This document shows positions 5,813-28,848 of a stretch of DNA of 38,119 nucleotides, piece after piece; within the stretch, counting starts at the first letter, position 1, and each line of letters begins with the position of its first letter. The translations under genes were made by a program, and so were the position numbers. Location of the stretch: contig JAHXGL010000005.1 in assembly GCA_019923655.1 (NCBI GenBank), positions 1 through 38,119 of the forward strand. The letters run 5' to 3'. This DNA comes from Candidatus Nealsoniibacteriota bacterium. Its GTDB lineage: Bacteria; Patescibacteriota; Minisyncoccia; Minisyncoccales; RBG-13-42-11. Under the pieces are notes generated by a model. The model saw only the letters and a program-made list of their open reading frames with translations, did not search any database and was not told where the DNA came from.

Positions 5813-5916
5813 AGCTTAATAAATGTTATACTAAAATTTAAGAATTGTAAACCCTATACGCTCTATGATGGCAAGGTAAAATATGATTTAATAATTCTAA
5901 ACTCGTGGATTTAAAA

Positions 5917-7521
5917 ATGAAAAAATATAAAATCTTTAACAAAAAAATCAGCGGACCTTTTACAATTCCGTCCGGAATAGTCGCTACTGAAGCATCAACA
6001 CTTGAAAAAATTGCAAATGAGATTCCGGAGATAGGAATCTTAACAACAAAAAGCATTGGCATAGAGCCAAGAGAGGGGAATAGAGAGCCGATTATTGCTC
6101 AATATTCTCCTTTTTCTTTTATCAACGCGGTTGGGCTTACTAATCCAGGAGCAGAAGAATTTGCCAGGAGATTGGCAGGAATAAAAATTCCTGATGATAA
6201 ATTTTTATTAATTTCAATATTTGGAAGTAATGAAAACGAATTTAAGGAAATAGCGGAAAAATTATTTACTTATGCCGATGGTTTTGAAATAAACATTTCT
6301 TGTCCCCATTCTGATAAATATGGCCAAATTATCGGACAGGACAATAACCTGGTAGGAAAAATTGTGAGAAACATCTCCTCTCTAGGGAAGCCTGTTCTTG
6401 TTAAAATTTCTCCGAATTTAGCGATTAAAGAAACTGTAAAATACGCAATAAAAGCCGGGGCTTTCGGCATAACCGCAATTAACACAAAGGGGCCCGAGAT
6501 GTTTTTGCGTGATAATCACACGGTTCTTACAAATAAAAGAGGCGGAGTTTCCGGAAAGGCAATTTTAGAAATTGGTTTAAACTGCGTCAAAGAGATAAGA
6601 GAGATAACAGATTTGCCAATCATTGCCTGCGCTGGAATTTCAACCAGAGAAGAAGTAGAAAGATACAAGGAAGCCGGGGCTGATTTCTTCGGGATTGGTT
6701 CAGCCCTAGCCGGGATGAATACTAAGGAAATAAAACAATATTTTCATGATTTATTGATTGATTTGGAAAAGGGAACGAATAGGGCAGCCATTTTCTTGAA
6801 AGAGAAATTAAACATGGATTATCAAAAATATAGAGTTATGGAAAATAAGCCTTTGAACGAAGATCTGTCTCTTCTAAGATTAAATGGTCAGATAGAAGCA
6901 GAGCCGGGTCAGTTTATTTTTGCCTGGCTGCCAGAAAAAGGAGAAAAACCATTTTCTGTGTTTGATGATAGTCCTTTAACTTTGTTGATTCAAAAAAAGG
7001 GATGTTTCACTAAAGAATTATTGAATTTAAAAAAAGGAGAAACTCTTTATATTCGCGGGCCTTATGGAAATTCTCCTAAGATAGAAGGGAAAGTTCTTTT
7101 GGTTGGCGGGGGTTCGGGCATAGCCGGTCTTTATCTTTTTGCCAAAAGAAATAAAAATACAATTTCTTTATTGGGAGCTAAAGATAAAAATCACTTAGCT
7201 TATTTGGAAAAGTTTAGAGTTTATTCCAAAACTCTTTATTCAACCACCGAGAAAGGGGATATGGGAGATAAGGGATTGGTGACAGATAGATTAGGGGAAA
7301 TTATTGAAAAAGAAAAGCCCGATTATTGTATTAATTGCGGGCCAGAAGCAATGGTCAGAGAAGCTATTCAAAAAGAAAGTAAAGATATTGACCAAGAAAG
7401 AATCTATTCTTCAATAGAGTTCCTGACTAAGTGCGGGATTGGTTTGTGCGGCTCTTGCGCCACTTCAAAAGGATGGCGAAGCTGCGTTGACGGAACCTTT
7501 TTCCCTCAATCAAGATTCTAG
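5917..7521 (+). CDS. pyrDK: Fused PyrD-PyrK dihydroorotate dehydrogenase (type 1B)
   Basis: Residues 1 to about 300 are a class 1B dihydroorotate dehydrogenase: FMN-barrel motifs IPSGIVATEAS, INISCPHSDKYG with the catalytic cysteine C129, ITAINTKGP and ACAGIST. Residues about 305-534 are PyrK: an FAD-binding region (GQFIFAWLP), the NAD-binding LLVGGGSGIAGLY, and a [2Fe-2S] cluster with C506, C511, C514 and C523 (CGIGLCGSC). In known 1B enzymes these are separate PyrD and PyrK chains forming a heterotetramer; here they are one polypeptide, which should pass electrons from dihydroorotate to NAD+. An upstream in-frame GTG at 5905 is possible, but the ATG at 5917 fits the family start. The last 12 bases overlap convergently with prs. 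Confidence 0.93.
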   Translation: MKKYKIFNKKISGPFTIPSGIVATEASTLEKIANEIPEIGILTTKSIGIEPREGNREPIIAQYSPFSFINAVGLTNPGAEEFARRLAGIKIPDDKFLLISIFGSNENEFKEIAEKLFTYADGFEINISCPHSDKYGQIIGQDNNLVGKIVRNISSLGKPVLVKISPNLAIKETVKYAIKAGAFGITAINTKGPEMFLRDNHTVLTNKRGGVSGKAILEIGLNCVKEIREITDLPIIACAGISTREEVERYKEAGADFFGIGSALAGMNTKEIKQYFHDLLIDLEKGTNRAAIFLKEKLNMDYQKYRVMENKPLNEDLSLLRLNGQIEAEPGQFIFAWLPEKGEKPFSVFDDSPLTLLIQKKGCFTKELLNLKKGETLYIRGPYGNSPKIEGKVLLVGGGSGIAGLYLFAKRNKNTISLLGAKDKNHLAYLEKFRVYSKTLYSTTEKGDMGDKGLVTDRLGEIIEKEKPDYCINCGPEAMVREAIQKESKDIDQERIYSSIEFLTKCGIGLCGSCATSKGWRSCVDGTFFPQSRF

Positions 7522-17260: not shown

Positions 17261-18400
17261 ATGAAATTGGAAACATATTTGAAAGTATTAATCGCTGTCT
17301 TGTTAATAGGGGTTAGTTTCTTGGGGGCTGTTTTGTTCCGAGAAGCAAAAGATATTGAGGTCTATTATGGGTTTTACGTTTCCAAACCCCTTCGTCGTTT
17401 GGAAGACAAGGCAGGGGACAAATCGGAATTTGCAAGACCAAAAACAGAGCCATTATCATCTGTTTTTGAGCCTGATTTGCTTTCTTGGAAACAAGTAGAC
17501 TCTGTTATGCCGCTTTGGTCAAAAAGAGACGCTCACACAACAACTGTTTTTAAGGATAAAATCTGGCTTTTTGGCGGTATAGACGGGGAAAAAGGATTTC
17601 CAGGCAGCCATCAGAAAATGCCCCATAAAAGCGATATCTGGACTTCTCAAGATGGAAAAAATTGGCAATTAATTACTAATGAAGCTGGCTGGGGCGAAAA
17701 GAGGTCTTTAACAAGCATAGTTTTTAGGGATAAAATCTGGATAATGGGAGGCTGGGGCCCGATTCAGGGTTATCAAAATAATATCTGGCATTCTTTAGAC
17801 GGCTTAAATTGGATTGAAGCTGTTTCTGAAGCAGAGTGGAGCCCAAGAGAGGGTCATGCTCTTTTAGTTTTTGACGAAAAGATATGGTTAATAGGCGGAA
17901 TTGTTTATAATAAAGGATTTAAGAATGATGTTTGGCATTCTGAAGATGGTATAAATTGGGTTCAGGCAACAAACACTGCTGCTTGGTCGCCAAGATACGA
18001 CCATACAGTAACTGTGTTTCAAGACAAAATGTGGTTAATAGGAGGAATTACTTCTTATGGTCAGACAAAAAATGATATTTGGACTTCAACAGACGGTAAA
18101 AACTGGGACGCAGCCACAGATAGCGCGGTCTTTCCCGCAAGACAGGGTCAGGCAGCGATTGTTTTCAAAGATAAGCTCTGGGTTATTGGCGGCTGGAATC
18201 AAGAAAAGCGCAAGATGTTGAACGATGTTTGGTATCTGGAAAATAAGGAATGGAAAGAGCTTGCGCTTGAAACCCCTTGGTCGGGAAGAGAAGACCATAC
18301 TGCAAATGTTTTTCAGGATAAAATCTGGATAATGGGGGGAAGCGGAATGAATAATAACGCAATGATTTGGAAAAATGATATTTGGCATTTGACAAAATAA
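17261..18400 (+). CDS. Membrane-anchored Kelch-repeat surface protein
   Basis: The N-terminus has one hydrophobic segment (about residues 8-27) with few charges before it, suggesting a signal anchor with the rest outside. From residue about 88 to 379 there are six similar units, each with a pattern like H-T-x-x-V-F-x-D-K-I-W-x-x-G-G, then N-D-I-W-x-S-x-D-G-x-N-W. This is a Kelch/galactose-oxidase-like six-bladed propeller. No oxidase active site is evident, so a binding role is more likely than catalysis. Residues 40-49 (VSKPLRRLED), between anchor and propeller, are encoded by a palindromic element. The gene lies next to the envelope genes; a role in surface attachment or wall assembly is inference. 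Confidence 0.8.
   Translation: MKLETYLKVLIAVLLIGVSFLGAVLFREAKDIEVYYGFYVSKPLRRLEDKAGDKSEFARPKTEPLSSVFEPDLLSWKQVDSVMPLWSKRDAHTTTVFKDKIWLFGGIDGEKGFPGSHQKMPHKSDIWTSQDGKNWQLITNEAGWGEKRSLTSIVFRDKIWIMGGWGPIQGYQNNIWHSLDGLNWIEAVSEAEWSPREGHALLVFDEKIWLIGGIVYNKGFKNDVWHSEDGINWVQATNTAAWSPRYDHTVTVFQDKMWLIGGITSYGQTKNDIWTSTDGKNWDAATDSAVFPARQGQAAIVFKDKLWVIGGWNQEKRKMLNDVWYLENKEWKELALETPWSGREDHTANVFQDKIWIMGGSGMNNNAMIWKNDIWHLTK
17380..17404. repeat. TTCCRAAY-type palindrome inside the Kelch gene
   Basis: TTCCAAAC and GTTTGGAA form an 8-base stem around the loop CCCTTCGTC. Over 25 bases it differs at one position from the copy upstream of murG (24524-24548). It encodes part of the linker after the membrane anchor. 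Confidence 0.8.
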
Positions 18401-19155: not shown

Positions 19156-19728
19156 ATGTCGCCTTTTATGTCTAAAAAATCTTATTTTCTTTTTTTGCTC
19201 GCAATATTTTTATTCGGAGCCTTAGCCGGAGTTTTGATTTTAGTATTGATAATGGAAAAAGAAATTTCTCTTTTTCATCAGAAAGCTGAAGAAATAAAAG
19301 AAAATATAGAGCCAGCAGAACAAGAAATTTATATTTTTTGCCACAAAATTCAAGACGGCATAGAAGTTGACCTTTTCAGACAAAAACTGCGTCTTTGCGA
19401 AAAAGGAACAGCTGTGGAGCAGTTTCAAATTTCTACTGGCAAAAGAGAAACACCAACTCCAACAGGCGAATTTAGAGTAATCCACAAAACACCAATGCTT
19501 TTTTCCAGAATAGCCGGGGCCTGGCTGCCTTTTTGGGTTGGATTTTACAATAATTACGGTTTTCATGAATTACCTATTAACATAGAAACAAACACAAGAA
19601 TCGGAGAAGATAAAATTGGCCAACCCGCTTCCTTGGGATGTGTTAGGTTGAAAGTAAATGAGGCGGAAAAACTTTATCATTGGGCAGAGATTGGTACGAG
19701 AGTGCTAATTTTTGGACAAACTCCATGA
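19156..19728 (+). CDS. L,D-transpeptidase (YkuD domain), membrane-anchored
   Basis: Forms or remodels peptidoglycan cross-links outside the membrane. One N-terminal transmembrane helix (about residues 9-33) is followed by a short helical stalk and the YkuD domain (about 68-190). The fold motif TPTGEFRV, the HxxP block as GFHELP (H137) and the catalytic SLGCVRL with C162 are visible; the common histidine two residues before the cysteine is L160. Starts at 19156 or 19168 are both possible. Its stop overlaps the mraY start (ATGA). It sits at the head of the mraY-murL-murD-ftsW-murG run, implying 3-3 cross-linked wall in this organism. Confidence 0.88.
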   Translation: MSPFMSKKSYFLFLLAIFLFGALAGVLILVLIMEKEISLFHQKAEEIKENIEPAEQEIYIFCHKIQDGIEVDLFRQKLRLCEKGTAVEQFQISTGKRETPTPTGEFRVIHKTPMLFSRIAGAWLPFWVGFYNNYGFHELPINIETNTRIGEDKIGQPASLGCVRLKVNEAEKLYHWAEIGTRVLIFGQTP

Positions 19729-20804
19729 CAGTCTTTACTTTTAATGTAATAAGAATTTTGGTTTTATTCGCTTTTTCAGCCGGAATAGCCTTTATTGCCG
19801 CTCCTTTTTTGATTAGATTTTTACACCAAATTAAATTTTGGAAAAAACAAGCCCGAGAAAAGACAATCACCGGCGAAAAAGCAGAAGTTTTTTATTCTTT
19901 ACACAAAGAAAGAGAAACAACAGTGCCCCGGGCCGGGGGATTGATAATTTGGGCTTCGGTTTTTGTTGTTATTTTTTTCTTTGCTCTTCTTCCGTATATA
20001 ATTGATGTCTGGTGGATAGAAAGATTAAATTTTTTATCAAGGGCTGAAACCTGGCTGCCTCTTTTTGCTTTAGTTATTGGTTCAATTATTGGCCTTTTTG
20101 ACGATGCGTTGGTGGTTTTTGGCAAAGGAAAATATGTTGGCGGCGGCTTAGATTTCAAAAAAAGATTATTGATTGTCGGTTTAATTGGTTTAGTCGGCGG
20201 GCTCTGGTTTTATTATAAATTGGGCTGGGAAACAATCCACATTCCTTTAATTTATAATTTCCCGGAAGGAATTAGTTTATGGCTTGGTCCATGGATAGTG
20301 CCTCTTTTTATTTTTGTAATGATTGCTTGTTGGTCGGGAGGAGTAATTGACGGTCTTGATGGATTAGCCGGCGGCGCTTTTTCCTCGGTTTTTGGCGCTT
20401 TTGCCATTATTGCCCTTTTTCAAGGCCGGGCTGATTTAGCTGTTTTCTGCGCTGTAATTTGCGGCGCTTTATTCGCTTTTTTATGGTTTAATATTCCGCC
20501 AGCCCGTTTTTATATGGGAGAGACCGGGGTGTTAGGTCTTACTTCAACTATGGCTGTGGTCGCTTTTTTAACTGATTCTGTGGTAATTCTGCCAATCATT
20601 GCCGGACTTTTCGTAATTGAAGTTGGTTCAATAATTCTGCAATTATTATCCAAGAAATTCAGAAAAAAGAAAATTTGGCTTTCTACTCCAATTCATCATC
20701 ATTTTGAAGCTAAGGCATGGCATCCTGAACAAATAACAATGAGGTTTTGGATAATCGGAATTATTTTTGCAATTTTAGGAGTAGCTATAAAGTTAATGGG
20801 ATAA
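19725..20804 (+). CDS. mraY: MraY, phospho-MurNAc-pentapeptide translocase
   Basis: Multi-pass membrane enzyme that attaches UDP-MurNAc-peptide to the polyprenyl-phosphate carrier, giving lipid I. It has 359 residues and about ten hydrophobic segments. Motifs in order: TVPRAGGL, the acidic pair D126-D127 in GLFDDALVV, GVIDGLDGLAGG, FNIPPARFYMGETG and the terminal TPIHHHFE (H324-326). Two key places differ from the norm: FMGDxGS is YMGETGV (E266 for the usual catalytic aspartate), and the lysine of DDxxK is not conserved. The start ATG at 19725 overlaps the transpeptidase stop; a longer frame upstream is a shadow of that gene. murL follows after one base. Confidence 0.92.
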   Translation: MTVFTFNVIRILVLFAFSAGIAFIAAPFLIRFLHQIKFWKKQAREKTITGEKAEVFYSLHKERETTVPRAGGLIIWASVFVVIFFFALLPYIIDVWWIERLNFLSRAETWLPLFALVIGSIIGLFDDALVVFGKGKYVGGGLDFKKRLLIVGLIGLVGGLWFYYKLGWETIHIPLIYNFPEGISLWLGPWIVPLFIFVMIACWSGGVIDGLDGLAGGAFSSVFGAFAIIALFQGRADLAVFCAVICGALFAFLWFNIPPARFYMGETGVLGLTSTMAVVAFLTDSVVILPIIAGLFVIEVGSIILQLLSKKFRKKKIWLSTPIHHHFEAKAWHPEQITMRFWIIGIIFAILGVAIKLMG

Positions 20805-20805
20805 T

Positions 20806-22116
20806 ATGAAATTTAAGGAGATAAGAAAAAAATATCCAAAATTTGTTTATGAAAAATATTTCTGGAAAATTTCTGGTAATAATCTGGAAATTTTTTTTGA
20901 TTTTAAGATTGAACCCGGTATTCGTTTTAAGCCAAAAATAATCATAGAAAACATCCCCAAAAGATGGTTGGCGCCCGGTGTCAACCACAACTTCAACCAT
21001 TTAATTTTTCATCTCGGCTTAATAGAGATGATTAGCTATTGGAAAGCGACCTGCTCGCCAATAATTGAAATTAAGGCCGGTTCTTTGAGCAGAGAACAGA
21101 TTAGATGGTGGCAGGATTTAATCAAAAATGGAATGGGCCAGTTTTTTTACGAAAATAAAATTGGCTTTCAAAACCCTTGTTTTATTGTTTCAAATCCAGT
21201 AGGATTTGGAAAATTTATTGTTTCAAATCCAGTAGGATTTGGAAAATTTATCTGTTCAGAACAAAAAACTAAACCTCTAATAATTACAAAATTAAAAAAC
21301 AGATACTTAGTGCCATTTTCAGGAGGAAGAGATTCAATCGCAACTTTAGAAAAACTAAAAGAACAAAAGAAAGAAATTACTTTATTTTCAGTAAATCCCA
21401 TAAAACAAATTCAGAAAACCGCAGAAGTTTCCGGTATGAGAAAACAGATAGTTGTTAAAAGAGGGATTGATAAAAAACTTTTGGAATTAAATAAAAAAGG
21501 GTATCTCAACGGCCATACTCCGTTTACCGCTCTTTTATCATTTTTGTCTGTTCTTTGCGCCTTTTTATTTGACTGCAAACGCATTGTTTTTTCTAATGAA
21601 AAAAGCGCTAATGAGGGCAATACCAAATATTTGGGCAAAACAATTAATCATCAATATTCAAAAAGTTCTGAATTTGAAAAGAAATTTAAAAGTTATTGCA
21701 AGAAATATCTGGTAAAAAATATAAACTATCATAACTTTTTAAGAAAATATACCGATCTTGAAATTTCAAAAATGTTTGGCAAATATCCAAAGTATTTTTC
21801 TGTCTTTTCCAGCTGTAATGCGGCTATGAAAATAAAACCATCTCTTAAAAGTAGATGGTGCGGCAAATGTCCAAAGTGTTTGTTTGTCTATATGACTTTA
21901 TATCCTTATTTAAAAAAACAAGAATTAATCAAAATTTTTAATGAAGATCTTTTTGAAAAAAAAGAGTTATTATCAATAATGAAAAGCTTGATAGGGCAGG
22001 GAAAACATAAACCTTTTGAATGCGTCGGAACTTACAAAGAAAGCAGAACAGCCCTTAATCTGTGCCTAAAAAAAGCCAGAAAATCAGGAAAAATTCCTTA
22101 CCTCTTAACAAGGTGA
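20806..22116 (+). CDS. murL: MurL, UDP-MurNAc-L-Ala-L-Glu epimerase
   Basis: Resembles MurL, the enzyme (known from Xanthomonas) that uses ATP to activate the terminal L-Glu of UDP-MurNAc-L-Ala-L-Glu and invert it to D-Glu, replacing glutamate racemase. Seen: the PP-loop ATP motif FSGGRDSIATLEKL with SGGRDS at 172-177, NHFNHLIFHLG-like N-terminal block (61-72), SNEKSANEGN (263-272), NHQYSKSSEFE (281-291) and a cysteine block WCGKCPKC (351-358). The adjacent murD has the matching MurD2-type signature. Residues 126-147 are two exact copies of FIVSNPVGFGK, encoded by a 33-base tandem duplication of a palindromic element. The stop codon lies in a CTCTTAACAAGG motif also present in pyrG. Confidence 0.82.
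   Translation: MKFKEIRKKYPKFVYEKYFWKISGNNLEIFFDFKIEPGIRFKPKIIIENIPKRWLAPGVNHNFNHLIFHLGLIEMISYWKATCSPIIEIKAGSLSREQIRWWQDLIKNGMGQFFYENKIGFQNPCFIVSNPVGFGKFIVSNPVGFGKFICSEQKTKPLIITKLKNRYLVPFSGGRDSIATLEKLKEQKKEITLFSVNPIKQIQKTAEVSGMRKQIVVKRGIDKKLLELNKKGYLNGHTPFTALLSFLSVLCAFLFDCKRIVFSNEKSANEGNTKYLGKTINHQYSKSSEFEKKFKSYCKKYLVKNINYHNFLRKYTDLEISKMFGKYPKYFSVFSSCNAAMKIKPSLKSRWCGKCPKCLFVYMTLYPYLKKQELIKIFNEDLFEKKELLSIMKSLIGQGKHKPFECVGTYKESRTALNLCLKKARKSGKIPYLLTR
21181..21246 (+). repeat. Exact 33-base tandem duplication of a palindromic unit in murL
   Basis: Units 21181-21213 and 21214-21246 are identical and in frame (11 codons each). Each contains TTTCAAATCC-AGTA-GGATTTGGAA, a 10-base stem with one T-G pair. 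Over 41 bases including flanks the unit matches the xer/uppS intergenic element (28815-28856), with changes in the loop and a compensated innermost pair. Confidence 0.92.
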
Positions 22117-22125
22117 CCGCCATCT

Positions 22126-23397
22126 ATGCTAAATGAATTAAAAAACAAAAAAATATTAATTTTGGGTTTTGGCAGGGAGGGGATAGATACTTTCTTGTTT
22201 TTAAGAAAATTGCGTCCAAAGATGTCTTTGGGAATAGGGGATGCAAAAGAAAATGTCAAATATCAAACATTGCCCCTTAAAAATGTTAAGTGGCACTTAG
22301 GAGAAAATTACTTAAAAACGATTAAAAATTATGATATTATAATAAAGTCGCCGGGAATTCCATTTAAAATTCTTCCGAAATCAATTCTTAAAAAAATTAC
22401 CACTCAAACCGAGATTTTCTTTGAAAATTGTCCGGGAACAATTATTGGAGTGGCTGGAACCAAAGGAAAAAGCACCACTGCCTCCTTGATTTATACGATC
22501 TTAAAAGCCAATAAAAAGAAAGCTCATTTAATTGGAAATATTGGAAAACCAGTATTAAATCTTTTACTTAATGCCAAACCAGTCAATATCTATGTTTATG
22601 AACTTTCAAGTTTCCAGCTAATGAACCTTAAAAAAAGTCCCCATATCGCAGTTTTTTTAAATACTTTTCCAGATCATTTAGACTACCACAAAGACTTTAA
22701 TGAATACGTCCAAGCCAACGCCAATATTGCCAAATATCAAACAAAAAAAGATTTTTTAATTTACAATTCTCAAGATAAACTGGTTAGGGAAATTGCTAAA
22801 AAATCCAAAGCTAAAAAAATTCCAATTAAAGGAAAGATTTTCGATCTTAACAGGGAAGCCGCTAAACAGGTAGGAAAAGTTTTTAAAATTTCAAACAAAG
22901 CCATATCAACGGCAATTAAGCAATTCAAGTTTTTGCCTCATAGATTAGAATGTATTGGAAAATTTAAAGATATTGAATTTTATAATGATTCTCTGTCCAC
23001 GGTTCCGGAAGCCGCTATTGGGGCTTTGGATTTTTTAGGAAATAAGGTTCAAACTTTAATTTTGGGCGGCCTTGACAGGGGACTATCATTTCATCGTTTG
23101 GCAAAAAGAATAGTTAATAGTAAAGTAAAGACGGTTATTTTATTTCCGGACACTGGAGAAAGAATTTGGGATGCCATTCAGCTTGCTTCGCTCTCTAAGG
23201 GTAAAAAATTACCAAAGCATTTTTGGGTTAGTAAATCAATGGAAGAAGCAATAATACTTGCCTATCAGAACACAAAAAGAGGTAAAATCTGTTTATTATC
23301 TCCGGCTTCGGCCAGTTTTAATCTTTTTAGGGATTATAAGGAAAGAGGGGATTTATTTAAAAAATATGTTAAAAAATACAGCAGAAGCCCAGTTTGA
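22126..23397 (+). CDS. murD: MurD2-type UDP-MurNAc-L-Ala glutamate ligase
   Basis: ATP-dependent Mur ligase adding glutamate to UDP-MurNAc-L-Ala. Rossmann N-terminus (ILILGFGREG), ATP loop GTKGKSTT (111-118; usual MurD has GTNGKST), ELSSFQL (159-165), HRLE (272-275), NDSLSTVPEA (287-296) and the C-terminal LSPASASFNLFRDYKERG. Conventional MurD reads DDSKATNP at 287-296; the SxST variant is that of MurD2, which prefers L-Glu and works together with MurL. The gene lies 9 bases after murL, with AGGTGA as possible ribosome site, and its 3' end overlaps ftsW by 32 bases. Substrate stereochemistry is inferred from motif and neighbour. Confidence 0.9.
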   Translation: MLNELKNKKILILGFGREGIDTFLFLRKLRPKMSLGIGDAKENVKYQTLPLKNVKWHLGENYLKTIKNYDIIIKSPGIPFKILPKSILKKITTQTEIFFENCPGTIIGVAGTKGKSTTASLIYTILKANKKKAHLIGNIGKPVLNLLLNAKPVNIYVYELSSFQLMNLKKSPHIAVFLNTFPDHLDYHKDFNEYVQANANIAKYQTKKDFLIYNSQDKLVREIAKKSKAKKIPIKGKIFDLNREAAKQVGKVFKISNKAISTAIKQFKFLPHRLECIGKFKDIEFYNDSLSTVPEAAIGALDFLGNKVQTLILGGLDRGLSFHRLAKRIVNSKVKTVILFPDTGERIWDAIQLASLSKGKKLPKHFWVSKSMEEAIILAYQNTKRGKICLLSPASASFNLFRDYKERGDLFKKYVKKYSRSPV

Positions 23398-24508
23398 TTA
23401 TATTTTACTTGCCATTGTGGCTATTTTAACAGGTTTAGGCATAGTAATTTTAGCCAGCGCTTCAGCGCCTTTTTCCCAAGAGATGTTTGGCAGCCCGTCC
23501 TATCTTTTGCTCCGCCATATTCTCTGGTTGGTTTTAGGGGCAATTTTAGCTTTTTTAGCTTTTAAGATTCGTCTGGATTTTTTAAAAAAAATAGCGCCAA
23601 TTTTAGTTTTAATAAATTTAATCTTATTGGCAATGGTTTTTCTGCCGGTGATTGGCGTAACTGCTCACGGAGCAAGCCGCTGGATAAATCTAGGGATAAT
23701 TACTTTTCAGCCAGCAGAATTTTTAAAACTAACTTTTATTCTCTATCTTGCCGCTTGGCTAAGCAATCGTTCAGAGAAACAGATGATTCAAAAGAGATCC
23801 GGAACCGTGGGCCCAAAAAAAGAATTAAAAATCAGCCAGACCTTGATTGCTTTTTTAGTCATTATCAGTGTCCTTAGTTTGCTCTTGGCGCTCCAGCCAG
23901 ATATCAGCACTTTGGGAGTAATTGTCCTAACCGCAATTTTAATTTACTTTTCAGCTAATACCCCTTTTTGGCATCTTATTTTAATGTTTTTCCTTGCATC
24001 CGGCAGCTTGATCGCTTTGGTAAAGATTGCGCCATATCGAGCGGAACGGATAATGGTTTTTTTTCAGCCGGGAATTGATCCCTTGGGGATTGGTTTCCAT
24101 GCAAGACAAGCCTTAATCGCGGTTGGTTCCGGAGGTATTATTGGAACGGGACTGGGAATGGGTATTCAAAAATTCGGCTTTTTACCTCAACCAATTTCAG
24201 ATTCAATTTTTGCTATTTTTGCTGAAGAAACCGGCTTTATCGGCGCATTAGGCCTAATTTTTCTTTTTTTAATGTTTTTTTGGAGAGGATTTAGAATTGC
24301 CAAAAACAAACAGAGTAAATTCTTTCAGCTTACGGCAATCGGAATTACTTCCTGGATTATTATTCAGGCTTTTGTTAATATTGGTTCAATGATCGGATTA
24401 CTGCCAGTAACCGGCATTCCTTTACCGTTTATTGGTTATGGCGGATCGCATTTAATTGCTGAGCTTATTGGGGTCGGAATTTTGCTTAATATATCAAAAC
24501 AAACATAA
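23366..24508 (+). CDS. ftsW: FtsW/RodA-family SEDS glycosyltransferase
   Basis: Polytopic membrane polymerase for peptidoglycan strands. Hydrophobic segments run throughout 380 residues. SEDS landmarks: LQPDISTLGVIVL, the loop GFHARQALIAVGSGGIIGTGLGMG, FLPQPISDSIFAIFAEETGFIGA, and the final LPVTGIPLPFIGYGGSHLI. The position after murD and before murG is that of ftsW in the classical division and cell-wall cluster, which favours FtsW over RodA. The ATG at 23366 lies within the end of murD; the frame extends further upstream but that part is murD in another frame. Confidence 0.92.
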   Translation: MLKNTAEAQFDYILLAIVAILTGLGIVILASASAPFSQEMFGSPSYLLLRHILWLVLGAILAFLAFKIRLDFLKKIAPILVLINLILLAMVFLPVIGVTAHGASRWINLGIITFQPAEFLKLTFILYLAAWLSNRSEKQMIQKRSGTVGPKKELKISQTLIAFLVIISVLSLLLALQPDISTLGVIVLTAILIYFSANTPFWHLILMFFLASGSLIALVKIAPYRAERIMVFFQPGIDPLGIGFHARQALIAVGSGGIIGTGLGMGIQKFGFLPQPISDSIFAIFAEETGFIGALGLIFLFLMFFWRGFRIAKNKQSKFFQLTAIGITSWIIIQAFVNIGSMIGLLPVTGIPLPFIGYGGSHLIAELIGVGILLNISKQT

Positions 24509-24511
24509 GTC

Positions 24512-24581
24512 TTCCAAATTCGTTTCCAAACCCCTTCGTGGTTTGGAACACCCACGAAGGGGTTTGGAAACGGATTTGGAA
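24512..24581. repeat. Long nested hairpin between ftsW and murG
   Basis: Arms 24512-24541 and 24552-24581 pair over 30 positions with one T-G mismatch and a 10-base loop. The left half contains its own smaller hairpin (24524-24548: TTCCAAAC, loop CCCTTCGTG, GTTTGGAA), which would exclude the long one. The structure ends 10 bases before the murG ATG and fills nearly the whole intergenic gap. Confidence 0.88.
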
Positions 24582-24591
24582 ACTTCAAAAT

Positions 24592-25815
24592 ATGAAAATA
24601 GTTTTTGCTGGTGGTGGCAGCGCTGGCCATATTATTCCAATTATTGCTATAACGAGAGAGATAAGGCGAATCTGTCTGACAGCGGCAAACCGCAAACAAA
24701 AAGAACCTCAATTCATTTATTTTGGCCCGAAAGATGAATTTAGCTCAATTTTACTTTCTCAAGAAGGAATAAAAATAAAATATATTTTAACGGGAAAAAT
24801 CAGAAGAAGCCTTAATTTGAAAAGTTTTTTTCAAAACTTGATTGATATCCTGTTTAAAATTCCGGTCGGCGCTGTTCAGGCATTTACTCATCTTCTGTTT
24901 TTAGGTCCTGATCTTATTTTTAGTAAAGGCGGATATGGTTCAGTGCCAGTGGTAATTTCTGGATGGATATTAGAAACACCGATTTTTCTGCACGAATCAG
25001 ATTCTGTTCCTGGTTTGGCTAATAGGTTTTTAAGCAAGTCTGCCTTAAAAATTTTTGTCTCTTTCCAAGAGACCGAATGCTTTCCGCTCGAAAAAATGAT
25101 TTTGACCGGCAATCCAATAAGAAAGGAAATTTTACAGGGATCAAAAGAAGAAGCAACCAAATTATTTAAATTAAAAAAGGGAAAGCCATTAATTCTAATT
25201 TTAGGCGGTTCGCAGGGAGCTCAAAGAATTAATGATAAAATTCTGGAAATATTACCAGAGCTTTTGAAAAACTTTGAGATACTTCATCAATGTGGAGAAA
25301 AAAACTTCAAGCAAGTTAAAGCTGAAAGCGAAGCAATCATTCCTAAAACAGATTTAGGGGCTGCCCCGTATAATCACGAAGAGAGCTATACAGGACAGGC
25401 CCCGTTAGATAAAAACTATCTAACGGGGCAAGCCCTAAAAAAGCATTATCATCTTTTTCCTTTTTTAAGAGAAGAAGAGATAAAGCAGGCTTACCAGGCA
25501 GCAGATTTAGTCATTAGTCGAGCCGGCGCCGGATCTATTTTCGAAATTGCCGCTCTTGGCAAGCCAAGTATTTTGATTCCATTGCCAGAGTCAGCTCAAA
25601 ATCATCAAATAAAAAACGCTTATGCTTATGCCAGAAATGAAGCCTGTTTGGTTGTTGAAGAGAATAATTTTACGGCGCGCTTTTTTCTGGGAAAATTAAA
25701 ACACCTTGTTTCTAATCTGGAAAAATTAGAAAAAATGAGTTTGGCAGCTCGGGAATTTTCCAAACCTCAAGCAGCCAGAATAATCGCTGAACATATTGTG
25801 AACCATCTTACTTAG
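24592..25815 (+). CDS. murG: MurG, lipid II GlcNAc-transferase
   Basis: Adds GlcNAc to lipid I on the inner membrane face. N-terminal loop MKIVFAGGGSAGHI, FSKGGYGSVP, LHESDSVPGLANR, LILGGSQGAQRIND and the UDP-GlcNAc site SRAGAGSIFEIAALGKPSILIPLP followed by QNHQIKNA. At 407 residues it exceeds the usual 355-370; about 29 of the extra residues (254-283, containing TGQAPLDKNYLTGQA) are encoded by a palindromic element inserted between the two domains' conserved blocks. The reading frame is kept. The ATG at 24592 is the family start; a GTG frame from 24538 runs through the upstream hairpin and is rejected. Confidence 0.92.
   Translation: MKIVFAGGGSAGHIIPIIAITREIRRICLTAANRKQKEPQFIYFGPKDEFSSILLSQEGIKIKYILTGKIRRSLNLKSFFQNLIDILFKIPVGAVQAFTHLLFLGPDLIFSKGGYGSVPVVISGWILETPIFLHESDSVPGLANRFLSKSALKIFVSFQETECFPLEKMILTGNPIRKEILQGSKEEATKLFKLKKGKPLILILGGSQGAQRINDKILEILPELLKNFEILHQCGEKNFKQVKAESEAIIPKTDLGAAPYNHEESYTGQAPLDKNYLTGQALKKHYHLFPFLREEEIKQAYQAADLVISRAGAGSIFEIAALGKPSILIPLPESAQNHQIKNAYAYARNEACLVVEENNFTARFFLGKLKHLVSNLEKLEKMSLAAREFSKPQAARIIAEHIVNHLT
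25353..25439. repeat. Nested TCTAACGGGGC-type element inside murG
   Basis: The core is a perfect 13-base stem, GCCCCGTTAGATA (25399-25411) with TATCTAACGGGGC (25417-25429), loop AAAAC. Outer arms TTTAGGGGCTGCCCCG (25353-25368) and CGGGGCAAGCCCTAAA (25424-25439) pair at 14 of 16 positions. The block adds about 29 codons in frame. Confidence 0.88.
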
Positions 25816-28824: not shown

Positions 28825-28848
28825 TTCCAAATCTGACAAGATTTGGAA
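28825..28848. repeat. TTCCRAAY-type palindrome between convergent xer and uppS
   Basis: TTCCAAATCT-GACA-AGATTTGGAA is a perfect 10-base stem. It lies between the stops of xer (28815) and uppS (28852) and could end transcription from either side. It is the intergenic sister of the units duplicated in murL. Confidence 0.85.

Follow-up and report, generated by a model that had tools for sequence, protein, structure and literature searches.

The window, by which we mean the whole stretch of 38,119 nucleotides that was analysed, comes from a genome of 463,348 bases in 20 contigs, rated 97.9% complete. It carries a peptidoglycan operon in which a YkuD (L,D-transpeptidase-like) gene is followed by mraY, murL, murD, ftsW and murG, and then by gltX. 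The murL open reading frame opens 1 nt past the end of the mraY frame, and murD starts 9 nt after the end of murL. The genes and residues referred to below are:

19680–20804, forward strand: mraY, directly 5' of murL; TIGR00445, 3.7e-45, 154.8 bits, under the cut-off of 192.05; the true start is probably the ATG near 19725
20806–22116, forward strand: murL, 436 aa, with a QueC-like predicted structure
21187–21252, forward strand: two tandem 33-nt palindromic-repeat-like units, in frame in murL (22 aa, residues 128–149)
21319–21336, forward strand: PP-loop SGGRDS of MurL (residues 172–177), aligning with GGGKDS of X. sacchari MurL
21814–21879, forward strand: Cys337 and W351-C-G-K-C-P-K-C358 of MurL, conserved cysteines of a predicted metal site
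22126–23397, forward strand: murD, MurD2-like, 423 aa
22672–22674, forward strand: Asp183, aligned with E. coli D182 and X. oryzae MurD2 E197; the D-Glu-type residue is kept
22717–22719, forward strand: Asn198 (AAC), where MurD otherwise has its catalytic carbamoylated Lys198
22984–23013, forward strand: NDSLSTVPEA (residues 287–296), not diagnostic in the MurD alignment
23077–23079, forward strand: Arg318 in GGLDRGL, equivalent to E. coli K348 and X. oryzae MurD2 R358, diagnostic in the MurD alignment and tree
23366–24508, forward strand: ftsW; TIGR02614, 6.9e-104; the frame opens at TTG 23258, with ATG 23366 the likely start
24592–25815, forward strand: murG; TIGR01133, 2.6e-72, 243.8 bits, slightly under the cut-off of 250.25; the frame opens at 24538, with ATG 24592 the likely start

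The gene at 20806 was originally predicted to encode MurL from its SGGRDS PP-loop and WCGKCPKC block. Both motifs are present, and the best profile match of the protein is indeed the NCBIfam MurL model NF041275 (E = 2.4e-79, residues 45–422). The score of 266.9 bits does not reach the 700-bit equivalog cut-off, but this model is named for Xanthomonadales and its threshold fits one order rather than the whole family; X. sacchari MurL scores 836 bits, the best CPR homologue 494 bits, and even the CPR MurL closest to Xanthomonas stays below 700. The window protein is 29% identical to X. sacchari MurL over 404 columns, and its named relatives come mainly from Candidatus Nealsonbacteria and other Parcubacteria/Patescibacteria genomes. 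Weak profile matches to the PP-loop families QueC, ATP_bind_3 and TilS suggest that the protein has an ATP site of the PP-loop type. Cys337 and the cysteines of the WCGKCPKC block are invariant in 27 close homologues and 96% conserved in 109 homologues; we take Cys337/352/355/358 to resemble the metal site of QueC. A further MurL homologue (323 bits) lies on a mobilizable Pseudonocardia plasmid (L037, 3764–5164) with no murD nearby and may have another role.

No solved structure of any MurL relative was found by sequence. An AlphaFold model built with 27 homologues (mean pLDDT 87.8, pTM 0.89) gave as its best match among solved structures QueC of Bacillus subtilis (3bl5, E = 1.8e-5), after which came QatC and Cap9, with 9y01 and 9nto likewise at <0.001. 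MurL shares with QueC, QatC and Cap9 the predicted fold, the PP-loop and the C-terminal cysteines, whereas it has an additional N-terminal region of ∼ 160 residues. The Pfam QueC profile gives 18 bits (cut-off 22), and the model suggests similarity to QueC in fold only, not membership of the QueC family. QueC uses ATP to activate a carboxylate. MurL is reported to convert ATP to AMP (PMC5808125), and the published work proposes adenylation of the Glu α-carboxylate while seeing no known conserved domains in the protein (PMC8788868, PMC5808125). A QueC-like fold agrees with both the AMP formation and the adenylation proposal, and offers a concrete structural lead on the unsolved mechanism of MurL; a literature search for MurL together with QueC found none.

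The neighbouring ligase matches the murD model TIGR01087 (E = 7.1e-91, 305.5 bits, over the cut-off of 211.95) and is ∼ 27% identical to X. sacchari MurD2. The MurD2/MurL pathway is known from Xanthomonas oryzae (XOO_1320/XOO_1319), with verified orthologues in Micromonospora and Salinispora (PMC8788868). In X. oryzae MurD2, E197 and R358 (E. coli D182 and K348) set the specificity for L-Glu; E197D changed the specificity and E197D/R358K reverts it to D-Glu (PMC8788868). NDSLSTVPEA, which had been read as a MurD2-type signature, does occur in the ligase, but it fails as a marker: MurDs from CPR racemase genomes commonly read NDSFSTTP, NDSLGTTP or NDTTATTP, and in both classes most CPR MurDs have a hydrophobic or small residue at position 319.

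Position 348 proved more informative in an alignment of MurDs from genomes with murL, with murI or with neither gene. It is Arg in the window ligase, in X. sacchari, in 46 of 52 MurL partners and in all 37 readable partners from named loci; it is Lys in every MurD from murI genomes (50/50) and from genomes with neither gene (19/19). Five MurL-linked MurDs from other CPR bacteria lack Arg348 (Lys in L085, L088, L106 and L110, Asp in L096), four of them in the lineage where murD precedes murL. These may represent recent acquisitions of murL, or may bind L-Glu by other means. The second specificity position does not mark MurD2 in CPR bacteria, with Asp in 17/52 MurL partners and Glu in 17/50 MurDs from murI genomes. 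The window ligase has Asp183 and not Glu here, and we therefore call it MurD2-like; given the effect of E197D in X. oryzae MurD2, its sequence suggests that it might take both Glu enantiomers.

The window's own order provides a closer control. Arg348 occurs in all four same-family murL genomes and Lys348 in all 12 same-order genomes with murI only; genome G349, which has neither gene and an ambiguous alignment (GGSSKRE), was left out of this count. A member of the window's own family, G274, has an mraY-murD-ftsW operon without murL, and its MurD, ∼ 60% identical to that of the window, carries Lys348. The same genome encodes a class-IV aminotransferase. In a MurD tree built without the specificity columns, one clade (SH-aLRT 98) holds 46 MurL partners including the window ligase and X. 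sacchari MurD2. Other partners lie within the canonical part of the tree, so that five changes are needed for Arg348 and nine for partnership with MurL. This tree offered too few pairs for an independent-pairs sign test to have power (median p 0.25).

Profile searches of the 97.9%-complete genome (∼ 2% is missing) found neither a glutamate racemase (TIGR00067) nor a class-IV aminotransferase (Aminotran_4). A PF01177 match on contig 18 was dismissed as a hidden racemase (18 bits, within an unrelated hydrolase-like frame). The genome encodes four Mur ligases, one each of MurC, MurE and MurF and the window's MurD. The proposal that this bacterium has no need for glutamate racemase is supported at the level of gene content, MurL being paired with a single MurD that carries Arg318.

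In a sample of 380 Patescibacteria genomes, with MurL and MurI each counted at >100 bits, murL was present in 58, murI in 115 and both in none; 17.6 would be expected (hypergeometric P = 1e-10, shared ancestry ignored). Eleven taxonomic families include genomes of both kinds, and the pattern therefore does not reflect one deep split. Strong MurL and strong MurI were both lacking from 207 of the 380 genomes. Of the murL genomes 7/58 encode a class-IV aminotransferase, as do 24 with murI and 27 of the 207 with neither gene. Weak TIGR00067 matches in 13 murL genomes were not accepted as MurI; those with a listed score reach 28–55 bits and are mostly partial matches. Among 147 genomes of the window's order, a MurL match is found in 98, and MurI passes the cut-off in 14. 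A single same-order genome, G422 (82% complete, 3% contaminated), has strong matches to both; its murL-murD pair (Arg348) and its murI-murD pair (Ser348, with Ala at 182) lie on separate contigs (L246 and L247), and the assembly may be a mixed bin or a genome that truly has both. With murL in ∼ 15% of the phylum sample and two thirds of the order, the linked pair, earlier called noteworthy for a small-genome CPR cell-wall cluster, is not exceptional in CPR bacteria.

In 51 of the 57 other murL genomes the gene lies beside murD on the same strand or is fused to it; in some of the remaining six the locus is at a contig end. The two genes stand in the opposite order in eight genomes. Single MurL-MurD frames of ∼ 730–910 aa, MurL first, occur in 11 CPR genomes (L082, L086, L089, which is cut by the contig end, L093, L097, L099, L102, L105, L112, L120 and L121); two were checked by profile.

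These data are consistent with the route put forward in the original prediction, ligation of L-Glu followed by epimerization on the nucleotide precursor: the mutual exclusion of murL and murI, the linkage and fusion with murD and the Lys-to-Arg substitution all support it, and from them we infer the activity. We put the probability that murL and murD together constitute the D-glutamate branch of this bacterium's peptidoglycan synthesis at about 0.86. Ordinary L-glutamate would be joined to the wall precursor UDP-MurNAc-L-Ala by the ligase and inverted there. MurL, as a QueC-like PP-loop enzyme, would spend ATP, presumably by adenylating the α-carboxylate of the attached Glu, which would make the α-proton acidic. 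Such a route would need neither free D-Glu nor a racemase or D-amino-acid transaminase.

Several points have to be set against that reading: Asp183 in the ligase, the five MurL-linked MurDs without Arg348 in other CPR bacteria and the ∼ 2% of the genome that is missing, besides further features of this copy. The catalytic carbamoyl-lysine of Mur ligases (K198) is absent from the window MurD; Asn198 occurs in no other compared sequence, all others having Lys except one with Arg. The window MurL has S310N and E317D at two sites that ≥95% of homologues conserve, and its residues 138–150, within and beside the palindromic-repeat-like insertion, fall where 94–99% of 109 homologues have gaps. Judged from the sequence, Asp183, Asn198 and the MurL changes may reflect relaxed specificity, lowered activity or an error of sequencing. 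They could also mean that MurL is genuine and this particular pair impaired or decaying, with D-Glu or muropeptides supplied by a host cell; the 207 genomes with neither gene imply that other sources must exist. We regard decay as unlikely, because both frames are intact within mraY-murL-murD-ftsW-murG, departures at conserved sites are not extreme in number (the window ranks 7 of 162 and 8 of 109), the insertion sits in a loop predicted to be disordered (pLDDT <50 at 129–155) and the ligase retains Arg318.

Slightly less probable still is a ligase that uses D-Glu as usual beside a MurL acting on another carboxylate or a later precursor. The retained Asp183, the K348 kept in some MurL-partner MurDs and the unrelated chemistry that the QueC fold also serves would fit such an arrangement. 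It does not account for the mutual exclusion of murL and murI, for the way K348R follows murL, a same-family genome with the same operon included, for the MurL-MurD fusions or for a genome without a D-Glu source. That MurL simply racemizes free glutamate for use by an ordinary MurD, which would also explain the absent murI, is very improbable: X. oryzae MurL showed no racemase activity (PMC8788868), and K348R and the tight linkage to murD would be needless.

The pair resembles that of Xanthomonas in comprising two linked genes, murL first, with racemase and transaminase missing, in having Arg at the R358 position and in the PP-loop and cysteine blocks common with X. sacchari MurL. It differs in belonging to another phylum, in having Asp at the E197 position and in being set within an mraY-ftsW-murG operon. 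Compared with the canonical MurI and MurD of E. coli and many CPR bacteria, the ligase family (TIGR01087) and the operon slot are the same, and murI itself adjoins murD in several CPR genomes, whereas the window has Arg for K348, murL beside murD and no murI. The published range of MurL covers Gamma- and Alphaproteobacteria, rare actinobacteria and low-similarity orthologues in a few other groups, CPR bacteria not being named. A literature search for MurL with Patescibacteria found no paper linking them; the pathway itself is known, and the window pair extends it to a group for which the papers searched give no listing.

Synthesis of D-Glu by MurI is held to be near universal, and the MurL route offers one explanation of how CPR bacteria that lack a racemase build a wall. 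The chief interest lies in how widely the route occurs in CPR bacteria, in the MurL-MurD fusions, in a Lys-to-Arg change that recurs and in the likeness of the predicted fold to QueC. On balance, though with reserve, we favour the view that MurL derives from QueC and, as a carboxylate-adenylating enzyme, would epimerize its substrate via an acyl-adenylate, and that CPR bacteria acquiring murL repeatedly turned a D-Glu MurD into an L-Glu ligase by Lys348-to-Arg, some of them fusing both into a bifunctional protein. The switches and fusions form a natural series for studies of Mur ligase stereospecificity, and MurL and MurD2 have been proposed as narrow-spectrum drug targets.

Elsewhere in the window, positions 5905–7521 encode a dihydroorotate dehydrogenase and its electron-transfer subunit as a single fused frame (PyrD residues 9–269, PyrK-like 310–535). 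The palindrome TTCCAAA(N)TTTGGAA occurs at 62 places in the 463-kb genome, compared with 0 for a reversed control. Copies lie in the window at 17380–17404, 24524–24548 and 28825–28848, the tandem units at 21187–21252 being related. It is sometimes found in frame within genes, as in a Kelch-repeat frame and, in a degenerate doubled form, in murL; we take it to resemble the palindromic elements inserted in frame within genes of Rickettsia.
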